Shown one piece after another: positions 22,446 to 57,802 of a stretch of DNA of 64,000 bases (the first letter of the stretch is position 1; each line of letters opens with the position of its first letter). Made by a program: the position numbers and the translations under genes. The DNA is taken from contig NZ_JADNQW010000002.1 of assembly GCF_015709455.1 (NCBI RefSeq), positions 81,955 to 145,954 of the forward strand. Reading direction: 5' to 3'. This DNA is from Methylosinus sp. H3A. GTDB lineage: Bacteria; Pseudomonadota; Alphaproteobacteria; Rhizobiales; Beijerinckiaceae. A model generated the notes under the pieces. The model saw only the letters and a list, made by a program, of their open reading frames with translations. It had not been told where the DNA came from and ran no database searches.

Positions 22446-25400
22446 ATGTCTTTCCTTCGGCTTTTCAGGCCGCAGGGGATCGCAGACGGACGGTCGCAGC
22501 TCAAGAACTCGACCGCTCTCGTCCCCCGACGCCGAGCCGGCGAGCGAAGATCGTCTTCGACACGCTCGAGCAACGCATTCTGCTGAATGCGGATGTGCTC
22601 GCCGTGAGTCTGGCGGCCGCCGCCCCGCAGCAGCAGGCCCATGACGTCGTCGTGCAACTCGTCGATCCCGCCTCGTCCCCGCAATCCGCGTCGGCGGCCG
22701 GGTCCGCAGCTGGTCCTCGGATCGAAGTCGTCGACCGCAGCAATTCGACAATTCTCGCGAGCGCCGATCTCGCAGGCCTCGAACGGGTTTCCATCGTCGG
22801 CGGCGCCGGCGCGGACACGCTCACCATCGATGCTGCTTCTTTCGCCGGCCGCCAATTGCCGAATTTCGCCTTCGCCGGCGGCGATGGCGCCGATACGCTG
22901 ATCTGGGGCTCCAGCGACGCAGCGACCTGGACGCTGCACGACGATGGCTCGGGCGCGATCAGCGGCCCCGCCAATGTGAGCTTCTCGGACGTCCAAAATC
23001 TCGTCGGCGGCGGCGCGGACACGCTGATCGGCGCCGTGACGGACACCGACTGGCGGGTCGAGGGCGCGGGCGCAGGCTCCGTCGGCGCTTTCGTTTTCGG
23101 CGGCTTCGCCAAGCTCACCGGCGCCGCAAATAATAACGACACTTTCTCCTTCTCGACGAGCGGCAGTCTCGCCGGGGTGGTGGACGGCGGAGCCGGCGGC
23201 TTCGACACTCTGGTCCTCGACGTCGGCGTCGCGCAGAGCCTCGTGTCGACGGCGACCGGCCCGGACAGCGGAACGATCGCCTATGACGGCGGACTCGTCA
23301 CCTATCGCGGCCTCGAGCCGGTCACGATCAACGGCGTTGTGGCCGATCTCTCCTTCGATCTCGGAACGCTCTCGGGCAATTCGAGCGGCGTGCAGGCGCG
23401 GCTGACGGATGCTGGAACCGCGACCGACGGCGTCATGACGCTCCAAAGCCTCAACGGCAAATTCGAGAGCCAGACCTTCAGCGCGCCGACGCATTCGCTC
23501 ACCGTGCGCGGCGGCTCGGGAACGGACAGCGTCGACATCGCTTCGCTCGACAGCACCTTCCATGCGGCGCTGACGGTGAACACGCTGCTCTCGGGCTATG
23601 ATCCGTTCGACGATGGCGGGCTGCTGCCGGGAGACAATCATCTGACGCATAAGAGCGTCGTGAGCGTCTCTGGCGATATTTCGCTTCATGGCGGCGCGCT
23701 CACTCTCGAGGCCGACACCATCTATGTCGGCACGGTCGCCGACCAAACCGGCGCTAGCGGCTCCTGGGCCGCCGGTCAGACCTACACGCATGTGGCCGCG
23801 ACCGGAGGCGCCGGAACGGGCGCGGAAGCGACCATCCTCGTCGATGCGGATGGCGTCGCGACGGCGCGGCTCAGCGCCGCCGGAACGGGATACGCCGTCG
23901 GCGACGCGCTCACCTTCGCGCCGAGCGGTGGCGGCTCGGTGACGATGACGCTGCGCAATGTCGCCAATTCCGCGATCGTCTCGACGGAGCTCGCCGGCGG
24001 CAACGCCGGCGAAATTCTGTTCGGCAAGCAGAAGACCAATGCGGATGGCACGACGAGCCTCGCCGGCGGCGCGCGCATCGCGCTCGGCGCCAATGCGCGA
24101 TTGCTCGCGGCGGCGGATACGGCGAATGGCCACAAGGCCGGCAAGATTTCGCTCGCGACCTCCGATGTCGCCACGCGCCTCGTGAGCTGGCCGGGCGACT
24201 TCACGGCCAAGGACGCCGCCATCGATATTCAGGGCGCGGTCCTGCGCGGCGGCGCGATCAAGGTGAACGCCACCGCCAAGGACGTCAATCTCAACAGCGA
24301 CGCGCCGGCCTCCGCCGCGGGCTTCACCGGGACGCTGACGAATCTGCTGGGGCAGATTCCGGGCGTTCTGCTCAGCGCCGCGACGGGCGTCGATCTCTCG
24401 GTGATCCTGCGCGGCGCGGACGCCAAGATCAATGTCGTCGACGCGACGATCGAGGCCGAAGGAACCGTCGACATAAAGGCGGAAACCAAGGTCGACACAC
24501 AGGTGTTCGCCATCGCTGCGGCGCTCGGCGGCGGCGGGCTCGCCAAATATACGGGGCTCGAATTCGCCGGCGGATACGGCCTCGCGCAGAGCGACGTCGA
24601 GGCGAATGTCGGCGGCTCCACGGTCATCGACGCCAGCGGCAGCGTCACCATCTCGGCCAAGGGCTCGACCTCGACGAAGACGGTGTCGCGCGCCTCGTCC
24701 AATCTCGACAGCACGGTCAATCCCAACGCTTCGTCCATCGCCATTGCGATAGCGCATACGGATCTCACCGCTCTGGCGACAGTCGGCCTCGACGCTTCGA
24801 TCACGTCGCGCGCAGGCAATGTCAATGTCATCGCCAATGGCGCGACCAAGACGACGCCGGACGCCAGCACGATCAGCCCGATCGACGGCCGCGCCGGCGT
24901 CGGCGTGGCGCTGGCGTTCGAATTCGCGACAGTGAAAGCTCAGCTCGACGGGACGATCAAGGCCGAGGGCACGGCTGCGAGCGAAAGCGAGGAGACGAAG
25001 ACCTTCGATCCGGTCGGCGGCGTCGATCCCGCCACCGACATCATCACCCTGCCCAATCACGGCTTCGCCAATGGGCAGGCCGTCGTCTACACGCCCTATC
25101 TCGTCAACACATCCGTCGCTGGCTCCACCGTGCTCGCGGTGCAGGGGCAGCAGAGCGATTCGGTCGGCGGGCTCGACAAGGGCAAGACCTATTACGTCAT
25201 CGTCGTCGATCAGGACCATATCCAGCTCTCCAAGGAGCCCTCGATCGATCTCGATCCGTCGGGTGTCGATCCGACCGCGACGCAGACGCTGAACGCAGTC
25301 AAAGCCAAGCTGTTCGACATAGACGCGGTCGACGCGAGCGCGGATACGATCCATATCGCCGCGCATGGATTCGAGACCGGCGACCAGGTCACTTATGACG

Positions 25401-56362: not shown

Positions 56363-57802
56363 ATGACGAACGCACACGCCGACAGGCGCATCGCGCGCGG
56401 AGCCGCGCGGCGAATTTGCGCCTCGATGCTCGGCCTTGTCGCGCTCGGCGCGCACGACCTGCGCGCGGAAACTCTGAAGGGCGCGCTCGCTTTTGCCTAC
56501 GCCAGCAATCCAGACCTCGAGGAGCAACGCGCGATTGCACGGATCCGCGACGAGGACGTGTCCAAAGCGGCTGCGGGACATCGACCCAAGGCCGGCGTCT
56601 CCTTCAGCGCCGGACCGCAAAAATCGAGCGTTCGTCAGCCCGGCGGGCGCGATCAGCTACGGAACCGCCTCTACACCAATGATGACAATTTCGGCTATCC
56701 GCGCAGCGGAACGCTGAATCTCTCATTGACGGTGTTCGACGGCTGGCGTTCGGACAATTCGATGCGCCAGGCCGAGTCCGGCGTGCTCGCCGCGCGCGCG
56801 ACGTTGATGGCCGCGGAGCAAGAAGTGCTGCTGCGCGGCGTCACCGTCTATATGGATGTGTTGCGCGACACCGCGACGCTCGGCCTGCGCAGGCATAATC
56901 AAGCCGTTCTCGCGGAGCAGTTGCGCGTCGCGCGTGATCGCGCCGACACGGGAATGGCGACAGTGGCGGATGTCGCACAGGCGGAAGCGGCGTTGGCGCA
57001 AGCCGCGTCCGACCATGCGGGGGCGCGTGAGGCGCTGCGGGCGAGCGTGGCCGAATATCGCGAGGTGATCGGGCGTCCGCCGAACCGGCTCGAGCCCGCG
57101 CAGGGCTGCGACCCTGATTTGCCGGCGACCATCGAACGCGCGGTGGAGCGCGCCATCGTCGCGCATCCGCAGGTGATCTCCTCTCTGCATCATGTGGACA
57201 TGGCGACGATGGCTGTAAAAGTCGCCGAGGGCGCGCTCATGCCGTCCTTTTCCGTGGGCGGCCAAGTCTATCAGCAATACGATTCCTATCTCGGCTATCC
57301 CGGCACCAAGCAGTTTTCGGCGCAGGTGACCGGAACGTTGAACGTGCCCTTATATGACGGCGGCGCCGAATATTCGGCGGTCAGGCAGGCCAAGCAGCAG
57401 CTCGGGCAGGCGCAGGTGCATGTCACAGCTCAGCGCAGCGCCATTCGCGCCAAGCTCGCCGTGAGCTACAGCCGCCTTGCAGCGACGAAGGCGGCGATGC
57501 ATTACGGCGGAATATTGGTGCGCTCCTCGGAAACGGCGCTGGCGCAAATCCGCAATGAGGCCGAGTTCGGCCAAAGAACTCTTCTCGACGTGCTGAACGC
57601 CCAACAGGCGCTATTCGACGCCAGGGTCAAAATGGTGTCTGCGCAACATGATCGCGTCGTCGCCTCCTGCTCGGCGCTCGCGGCGATCGGCGGCTTGTCG
57701 GCCGATGGTTTGAGTCTCGATGTCGAACGTTACGATCCGGCGAAGAATCTGGAGCGCGTGCGCGATCTGTGGATCGGCGTCGACATGCCAGAAGATCGAT
57801 GA
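56363..57802 (+). CDS. TolC-family outer-membrane channel
   Basis: This 479-residue protein has a signal peptide ending near HDLRAE. The TolC repeats are visible: LKGALAFAYASNPDLEEQRA, LNLSLTVFDGWRSDNSMRQA, then DVAQAEAALAQA, GTLNVPLYDGGAEYSAVRQAKQQ and EAEFGQRTLLDVLNAQQALFDAR. It is the last clear gene of the export cluster. No RND pump or ABC exporter that would normally pair with it is encoded in the window, which supports the SecA-based model. Confidence 0.93.
   Translation: MTNAHADRRIARGAARRICASMLGLVALGAHDLRAETLKGALAFAYASNPDLEEQRAIARIRDEDVSKAAAGHRPKAGVSFSAGPQKSSVRQPGGRDQLRNRLYTNDDNFGYPRSGTLNLSLTVFDGWRSDNSMRQAESGVLAARATLMAAEQEVLLRGVTVYMDVLRDTATLGLRRHNQAVLAEQLRVARDRADTGMATVADVAQAEAALAQAASDHAGAREALRASVAEYREVIGRPPNRLEPAQGCDPDLPATIERAVERAIVAHPQVISSLHHVDMATMAVKVAEGALMPSFSVGGQVYQQYDSYLGYPGTKQFSAQVTGTLNVPLYDGGAEYSAVRQAKQQLGQAQVHVTAQRSAIRAKLAVSYSRLAATKAAMHYGGILVRSSETALAQIRNEAEFGQRTLLDVLNAQQALFDARVKMVSAQHDRVVASCSALAAIGGLSADGLSLDVERYDPAKNLERVRDLWIGVDMPEDR

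Follow-up and report, generated by a model that had tools for sequence, protein, structure and literature searches.

The closest described relative of the locus considered here is a gene module reported by Kamneva, Poudel and Ward in 2015, in which secondary SecA_DEAD proteins lacking SecA_SW are encoded in loci with GAF/HlyD, M50/HlyD and HlyD proteins (PMC4452313); SecA was proposed to be the ATPase and the M50 protein the membrane part, the broader role of the module being described as "completely unknown", and the main text of that paper mentions no LEPR, giant or adhesin protein and leaves the substrate unnamed. As for the LEPR-XLL motif, the term occurs in two papers of the openly licensed literature searched, where the passages concerned speak of an 8,000-residue Vibrio protein and of a database match, and name no export partners. 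The present analysis concerns a row of seven genes in a stretch of 64,000 nucleotides (hereafter the window) from Methylosinus sp. H3A, part of an 11-contig genome of 5.38 Mb in total; named relatives closest at the protein level come mostly from Methylosinus. The row comprises the gene of a giant repetitive protein carrying the LEPR-XLL motif, followed by genes for a DUF3467 protein, a GAF/HlyD protein, a PqqD/M50/HlyD fusion, a short SecA paralogue, a periplasmic adaptor and a TolC-family channel (Table 1). Judging from gene content and from comparison among genomes, the locus probably encodes a giant surface protein together with a dedicated trans-envelope exporter, in which the short SecA would drive the transport of very long substrates.

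Co-occurrence of the module with LEPR-XLL giants

An earlier note on this DNA, written from the sequence alone, had proposed looking for co-occurrence of LEPR-XLL and exporter genes across genomes, and the outcome is strongly positive. In an even sample of the phylum Pseudomonadota, LEPR-XLL was found in 41 of 398 genomes; a short SecA was present in 29 of 40 LEPR-positive genomes (own genome excluded) and in 1 of 40 LEPR-negative ones (Fisher p = 2e-11), the latter being 40 handles between G340 and G399, drawn from 357 genomes with no match at E<=0.001 and unmatched by lineage. A short SecA was called when a match to model A2 reached position 655 or beyond, canonical SecA matches ending near 550, with at most 15 candidates scored per genome; the 29 include a gene with an internal stop (G602) and a fragment (G392, 18-301) counted for its place beside M50, and without these two the figure is 27/40. 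The sole LEPR-negative genome with a short SecA (G360) has an interrupted M50 gene beside it. An M50 relative (E<=1e-30) was found in 39 of the 40 LEPR-positive genomes.

Starting from the module instead, LEPR-XLL scored above cut-off in 43 of 46 module genomes (all except G007, G033 and G040), reached via 47 of 80 related loci picked mainly for long flanks, and in none of the 14 controls when that threshold was applied to them; in 39 of these 43 the LEPR frames exceed 4,504 residues, up to 15,371. The background is low: in an even sample of the class, LEPR was found in 2 of 289 genomes, one of them the genome under study, which is also the only one where the M50 model exceeded 1,000 bits (163-288 bits in 11 others). 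Ten genomes of the genus divide evenly: five combine a strong LEPR match (E<=2e-6) with a short SecA and the other five lack both, G706 (E 0.0036) and G709 (0.0047) being counted as LEPR-absent although over the family cut-off, and G703 being 86% complete. In 16 of the 29 genomes with both genes the short SecA and LEPR lie on one contig, separated by at most 15 kb in 15 and by 17.7 kb in one. All these counts ignore kinship beyond the within-genus comparison. In three genomes (G345, G409 and G436) several LEPR frames are accompanied by several copies of the short SecA, as though, in such multi-copy genomes, a giant could be served by an exporter of its own.

Related loci show the gene row much more often than chance would allow. 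A search of genome contigs for M50 relatives gave at least 555 confirmed matches, the best 80 of which were kept as related loci; judging by their record titles, these come from Alpha-, Beta-, Gamma- and Deltaproteobacteria as well as Nitrospirota. Within these best 80 of 555, SecA adjoins M50 in 76 of 77 testable loci, GAF/HlyD does so in 72 of 75 under a strict rule (the remaining three having it in overlapping open frames), and DUF3467 is matched in 28 of 55; in many of the loci a giant open reading frame lies just upstream or a LEPR-XLL frame nearby. In plasmid pRlX3 of Rhizobium johnstonii the M50 gene is accompanied by a short SecA in two frames, no giant gene being listed within the 23-kb stretch viewed, which starts at the record start. 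One locus (L052) was considered as SecA-less and rejected, the short SecA residing on another contig of its genome.

In the window itself the seven genes run in the same direction and in the order that the earlier note had given, as borne out by Pfam and NCBIfam scores. That note had also described four of the downstream genes as overlapping the next or lying within 31 bases of it; in fact all five downstream junctions are tight, three of them being gaps (31, 10 and 31 bases) and the other two overlaps. Its statement that no ATP-binding cassette (ABC) exporter is encoded agrees with a motif scan of the window frames of at least 150 residues, in which none combined a Walker A with an ABC signature motif. 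The domain labels stood as well, except that the M50 domain scores 17.0 bits, under the Pfam cut-off of 27.2, though the metalloprotease residues are invariant across 21 aligned M50 sequences. The giant belongs to the LEPR-XLL family, the NF012209 match near its N-terminus lying above the curated cut-off of 17, and the channel protein scores 276.5 bits with the type I secretion model type_I_sec_TolC (TIGR01844), above the cut-off of 225.15. The adaptor gene, which overlaps the SecA gene, has an uncertain start (GTG 55372 or ATG 55450). The locus has the composition of the 2015 module: GAF/HlyD and M50/HlyD proteins are encoded beside a SecA_DEAD protein that is without SecA_SW and groups away from canonical SecA.

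It might be supposed that the module exports or matures some other product, such as a small peptide of the ribosomally synthesised and post-translationally modified (RiPP) kind, and that the giant is its neighbour for other reasons. The M50 protein does resemble the daptide intramembrane metalloprotease family (NF041824, 159.8 bits over residues 18-414, the cut-off of 300 not being reached), and RiPP leaders are bound by PqqD domains. What argues against this explanation, which we consider highly improbable, is that the module and the LEPR giants occur together and are lost together.

The short SecA and the proposed route of export

Aligned to the canonical, normal-length SecA that the genome also encodes, and with the customary domain boundaries, the short SecA breaks off soon after entering the scaffold helix: it retains NBD1, NBD2 and the preprotein-binding domain, and lacks the helical wing, the two-helix finger, the rest of the scaffold and the C-terminal linker. 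Across 25 aligned short SecA sequences the Walker A, DEAD-type and motif VI residues do not vary, and in a tree built from 11 canonical sequences and 45 of the 73 short ones collected, from which those of Kamneva et al. are absent, the short SecA stands apart from canonical SecA with support of 100/100. Its scores with the SecA2 NCBIfam models fall below the cut-offs. In one genome (G482) a supposed M50-SecA fusion, suggested by a long open frame found for each, was rejected: the SecA domains share one frame, the preceding stretch of which does not read as M50, and the long frame is simply open because the DNA is GC-rich. On the boundaries used, the short SecA is in effect a natural version of E. 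coli SecA-N68 (cut at residue 610) with part of one further helix; according to PMC5603524, SecA-N68 binds SecYEG and signal peptides and has a constitutive ATPase activity.

This property of SecA-N68 bears on the possibility that the housekeeping SecA and SecYEG move the LEPR giants over the inner membrane, the module being left with leader processing and outer-membrane passage. The general machinery is at hand: all 15 genomes searched for it gave a canonical-type SecA match, though a partial one in G703, and all 16 searched for SecY have that protein. No second SecY was found in the genome under study, and SecY is single in 14 of the 16 genomes searched, so that there is no regular SecY2 partner; a dedicated SecY2 was discarded as a candidate, since G459 and G475 alone gave an extra SecY match, a partial one of 100.6 bits in the former and one of 217 bits next to the main SecY in the latter. 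Against a housekeeping route speak the lack, in the short SecA, of the two-helix finger that canonical SecA uses, and the nature of the leaders. In 51 LEPR proteins, read from 53 loci and with start codons not determined, the leader is often basic and ends in a motif near LEPRxLLSAD; on a 12-residue hydropathy scale it stays below 1.2 in 46 and exceeds 1.6 in 2. Since 46 of the 51 lie under 1.2, most leaders appear to have no signal-peptide-like hydrophobic core, and the LEPR leader is predicted to be unlike a Sec signal peptide. We therefore regard export by the housekeeping system as decidedly improbable. The position and constancy of the LEPR-XLL motif suggest that it is a sorting or processing signal. 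In 16 of the 51 giants the protein opens with MAFPF or a close variant, well upstream of the LEPR motif.

A plausible reader of such a signal is the M50 fusion protein. The assignment of its PqqD domain rests on the Pfam match listed in Table 1 and on a profile alignment of M50 proteins; no Pfam match to PqqD was found in the one M50 protein of the SecA-less type that was scanned, and the M50 profiles of the SecA-bearing and SecA-less types align over 682 columns, PqqD region included. A structure model of the M50 protein was set aside as evidence for a PqqD/S2P fold, the matches listed being filled up by adaptors, to residues 445-702. The DUF3467 protein is modelled as four strands and one helix; this predicted fold gave no structural match, and a role as a SecB-like chaperone is not claimed.

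In the mechanism that we propose for a dedicated exporter, the PqqD domain would bind the LEPR-XLL leader and the M50 domain would clip or hold it; the short SecA, with ATP, would push the unfolded chain across the inner membrane, either via SecYEG or via the M50 protein, and the HlyD/TolC conduit would carry it outward. It is above all with very long chains that the short SecA would be important, given that the giants of the SecA-less loci encountered reach no more than about 4,500 residues. A bolder version, conceivable and put forward only tentatively, is that of a distinct secretion class, in which a fingerless SecA motor and an RRE-M50-HlyD protein would dispense with the usual use of SecYEG, read the N-terminal LEPR-XLL leader and pass through TolC single chains with lengths reaching some 15,000 residues or beyond, SecA being needed only above about 4,500.

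The SecA-less loci just mentioned are of more than one composition. In G404 the row consists of a LEPR giant, TolC, an adaptor, HlyD and M50/HlyD; in G388 of a LEPR giant, TolC, an OmpA-repeat protein, a 280-residue open frame, an HlyD-like protein and M50; one locus of G363 has a LEPR giant, an adaptor, an HlyD-like protein and M50, and no TolC. The loci L167, L166, L165 and L171 represent a second, SecA-less type of LEPR locus, with giant frames of 2.4-4.5 thousand residues and ALEPRxxxD motifs, which includes M50/HlyD, HlyD and an adaptor; some of these loci also have TolC, and one has an OmpA-repeat protein. A renewed search with the window SecA in six of the 11 SecA-less genomes (G342, G640, G363, G404, G388 and G458) returned canonical-type matches only. 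Because SecA-less LEPR loci retain M50/HlyD, it is this protein that accompanies LEPR-XLL more constantly; SecA is a frequent partner, not a universal one.

These loci are the main ground for an alternative in which the M50/PqqD/HlyD protein, HlyD, the adaptor and TolC form the real exporter and the short SecA is an accessory (chaperone, unfoldase or stall-rescue factor), the main energy coming from elsewhere. Such an arrangement would account for an M50 relative being more widespread than the short SecA among LEPR-positive genomes, for the retention of M50, HlyD, adaptor and, in several cases, TolC where SecA is missing, and for the alignment of the M50 profiles of both types. It fits less well with the near-invariable adjacency of SecA and M50 in the related loci and with the invariance of the ATPase motif residues; moreover, the SecA-less loci show no dedicated motor either, because in a motif scan no ABC or other obvious ATPase was found directly beside those examined (ABC-type frames lie some kilobases off in L177 and L179 only). 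On balance an accessory role of the short SecA is unlikely.

Length offers a further comparison between the two kinds of genome. The largest LEPR frame per genome has a median of 6,562 residues with the short SecA and 3,479 without (rank test p = 0.008), these being open-frame lengths, not proven proteins, with short or contig-cut LEPR frames of 159-1,312 residues in some SecA-less genomes (G342, G491 and G377). Frames above 4,504 residues are the largest in 18 of 29 SecA-bearing and in 0 of 11 SecA-less genomes (p = 0.0003), a threshold set after seeing the data. This would suggest an association of the SecA motor with long substrates, but contig ends or lineage could give the same pattern.

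A number of observations weigh against a dedicated, SecA-driven exporter. Besides that threshold and the influence of contig ends and shared ancestry on the length comparison, SecA-N68 is reported to be unable to catalyse translocation (PMC5603524). The short SecA is missing from 11 of the 40 LEPR-positive genomes, and both G640 and plasmid pCSC3H3 of Thalassospira marina carry a row of the window type minus SecA; on the latter, the chromosome being outside the search, no SecA at all was found, and the largest LEPR frame measures 4,033 residues. In 13 of the 29 genomes the short SecA and LEPR are on different contigs. Thirteen of the 40 LEPR-negative genomes nevertheless have a distant M50 relative (E<=1e-30), and 10 of the 11 class genomes with a weak M50 match have no LEPR match; one control, Deinobacterium chartae, has an over-cut-off LEPR match at looser thresholds. 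Within the related loci an adaptor was matched in only 45 of 60 testable cases and TolC in only 4 of 39, the TolC model being of limited sensitivity. Finally, the giant gene of the window is itself broken, as described below. The earlier note had spoken of a SecA-powered hybrid of Sec and type I secretion: co-occurrence favours the association, transport itself being an inference; a hybrid had already been proposed in 2015, and "SecA-powered" is not true of every LEPR locus, given the 11 genomes in 40 and the SecA-less rows.

Integrity of the giant gene and setting of the locus

The single giant protein of the earlier note is not encoded here in one open frame: up to position 48971 the gene passes through frames 0, 2, 1, 0, 1 and 0, with some six frame changes near 22.5, 26.7, 28.8, 31.57, 31.82-31.86 and 46.56 kb, located by tblastn with the intact protein of a congener, to which the window giant is 86-94% identical. 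What remains of that claim is its LEPR-XLL membership and the integrity of the protein in relatives, the giant being a single open frame of 8,862-8,879 residues in three congeners. Comparison with these suggests that the start is perhaps the in-frame ATG at 22407.

One could accordingly see in it a decaying pseudogene beside an exporter left without an intact substrate, a view encouraged by the contrast between six or so frame changes in 26.5 kb and none across the 8.7 kb of exporter genes. A rate of six breaks in 26.5 kb would lead one to expect about two in 8.7 kb; a count of zero is therefore unsurprising, and assembly error may be the cause. Moreover, the five long giant segments (the short sixth being left out) contain no internal stop, and their ratio of non-synonymous to synonymous substitution rates (dN/dS) against the congener is 0.15-0.20, comparable to the 0.16-0.17 of four exporter genes and a mark of strong purifying selection. 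Since the segments are stop-free and have dN/dS values like those of the exporter genes, the breaks are recent or assembly errors; with the gene intact also in plasmid pMSC49a of Methylosinus sp. C49, where an unbroken coding sequence spans 26.5 kb, decay appears rather improbable.

The giant's domains (filamentous tandem repeats, PKD and Laminin-G) would fit a surface protein. A common C-terminal signal was looked for by eye in 37 large upstream open reading frames, not all of them giants; several tails are acidic/aromatic or short and tryptophan-containing, and no single shared motif was seen. Among the giants of L021, L024, L029, L047, L053, L070 and L083, several have a short tail in which an I/V-x-W element precedes an amphipathic stretch, and others have acidic, DDW-rich tails; such tails are possible anchoring or release signals.

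Table 1. Coordinates of the gene row, its motifs and associated plasmid features (window positions unless another record is named)
Feature	Position	Strand	Evidence
RepC, plasmid replication gene	2840-4174	minus	
ParA/RepA-like protein	5389-6612	minus	
Giant surface-type repetitive protein gene, ~8.8 thousand residues if continuous	22446..48971	+	Frames, tblastn, domains, dN/dS
LEPR-XLL motif (LEQRILLNAD here)	22553..22618	+	NF012209: 25.2 bits (open reading frame scan), 30.7 bits (genome scan)
DUF3467 protein, 106 residues	49086..49406	+	PF11950, 56.9 bits
GAF/HlyD protein, 631 residues	49438..51333	+	PF01590 (GAF, 47.0 bits), PF16576 (HlyD_D23, 73.3 bits), PF13437
PqqD (RRE-like)/M50 metalloprotease/HlyD-lipoyl fusion, 715 residues	51344..53491	+	PqqD, 27.1 bits
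PqqD domain, within M50 fusion gene	51452-51646	+	
HEIGH (HExxH), within M50 fusion gene	51971-51985	+	
Short SecA paralogue, 665 residues	53484..55481	+	SecA_DEAD, 347.1 bits; alignment to canonical SecA
Periplasmic adaptor, HlyD/RND type	55372..56331	+	PF16576, 68.6 bits; TIGR01730, 125.3 bits (cut-off 94.9)
TolC-family outer-membrane channel, 479 residues	56363..57802	+	PF02321 (OEP), 156.1 bits
Thalassospira marina pCSC3H3 row: LEPR, DUF3467, HlyD, M50 relative, adaptor, TolC	L217, 5543-24508		

The contig is probably a repABC plasmid, because the window holds RepC and ParA-like genes (Table 1) and because pMSC49a has the same exporter row together with repABC. The short SecA of pMSC49a (L215, 22222-24138) is annotated as "prepilin peptidase", a label carried by several other matches too, which looks like a database misannotation. 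The window also encodes, on the minus strand at 6874-8052, a Fic/DOC family protein with a winged-helix region.

Comparison with known secretion systems

A module known since 2015 without an assigned job thus acquires, through the LEPR-XLL link, a likely substrate; its recurrence beside giant LEPR-XLL genes, whose products are among the largest proteins of bacteria, therefore suggests its purpose, and the same link offers a possible function for an N-terminal motif that has been little more than a name. It also poses the question of whether a polypeptide can be moved by a SecA lacking the two-helix finger. Extending over several proteobacterial classes and Nitrospirota, the link is open to direct testing because it is present in methylotroph genera amenable to laboratory work, the natural SecA-less loci serving as built-in controls. 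Among these methylotrophs, four Methylorubrum genomes (G002, G003, G005 and G006) encode a LEPR-XLL giant; in the laboratory species Methylorubrum extorquens the operon of strain AM1 is MexAM1_META1p2402 to 2399 (PMC4452313). Within the openly licensed literature searched, the LEPR-XLL substrate link appears to be new; the module itself is not.

With the type I secretion of giant adhesins the locus shares TolC, HlyD-type adaptors and a giant repetitive substrate encoded in one cluster; it differs in the absence of an ABC ATPase from the window, in two additional proteins that join HlyD parts to M50/PqqD or GAF domains, and in a signal that here is probably N-terminal. In accessory Sec systems (SecA2, SecA2/SecY2), too, a SecA paralogue is found next to a large surface protein built of repeats; unlike the short SecA, which has no C-terminal domains, solved SecA2 chains reach 778-786 residues, and the window system is without SecY2, has HlyD/TolC partners and occurs in Gram-negative hosts. 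The daptide intramembrane metalloprotease corresponds to the PqqD and M50 part of the fusion protein (residues 18-414), to which the window protein adds an HlyD hairpin, and a giant takes the place of the small presumed substrate. As to LEPR-XLL (LEPR-8K, NF012209), the first segment of the giant is a member by the curated model, the output of which names the motif only and gives no export partner. The nearest likeness is that to the module of Kamneva and co-workers, described as comprising GAF/HlyD, M50/HlyD, a SecA_DEAD protein in which SecA_SW is missing or reduced to a fragment, and HlyD, sometimes with OEP and with no ABC component; to this description the present analysis adds the LEPR-XLL giant, DUF3467, the point of truncation of SecA, the PqqD domain, the SecA-less versions and the relation to substrate size.

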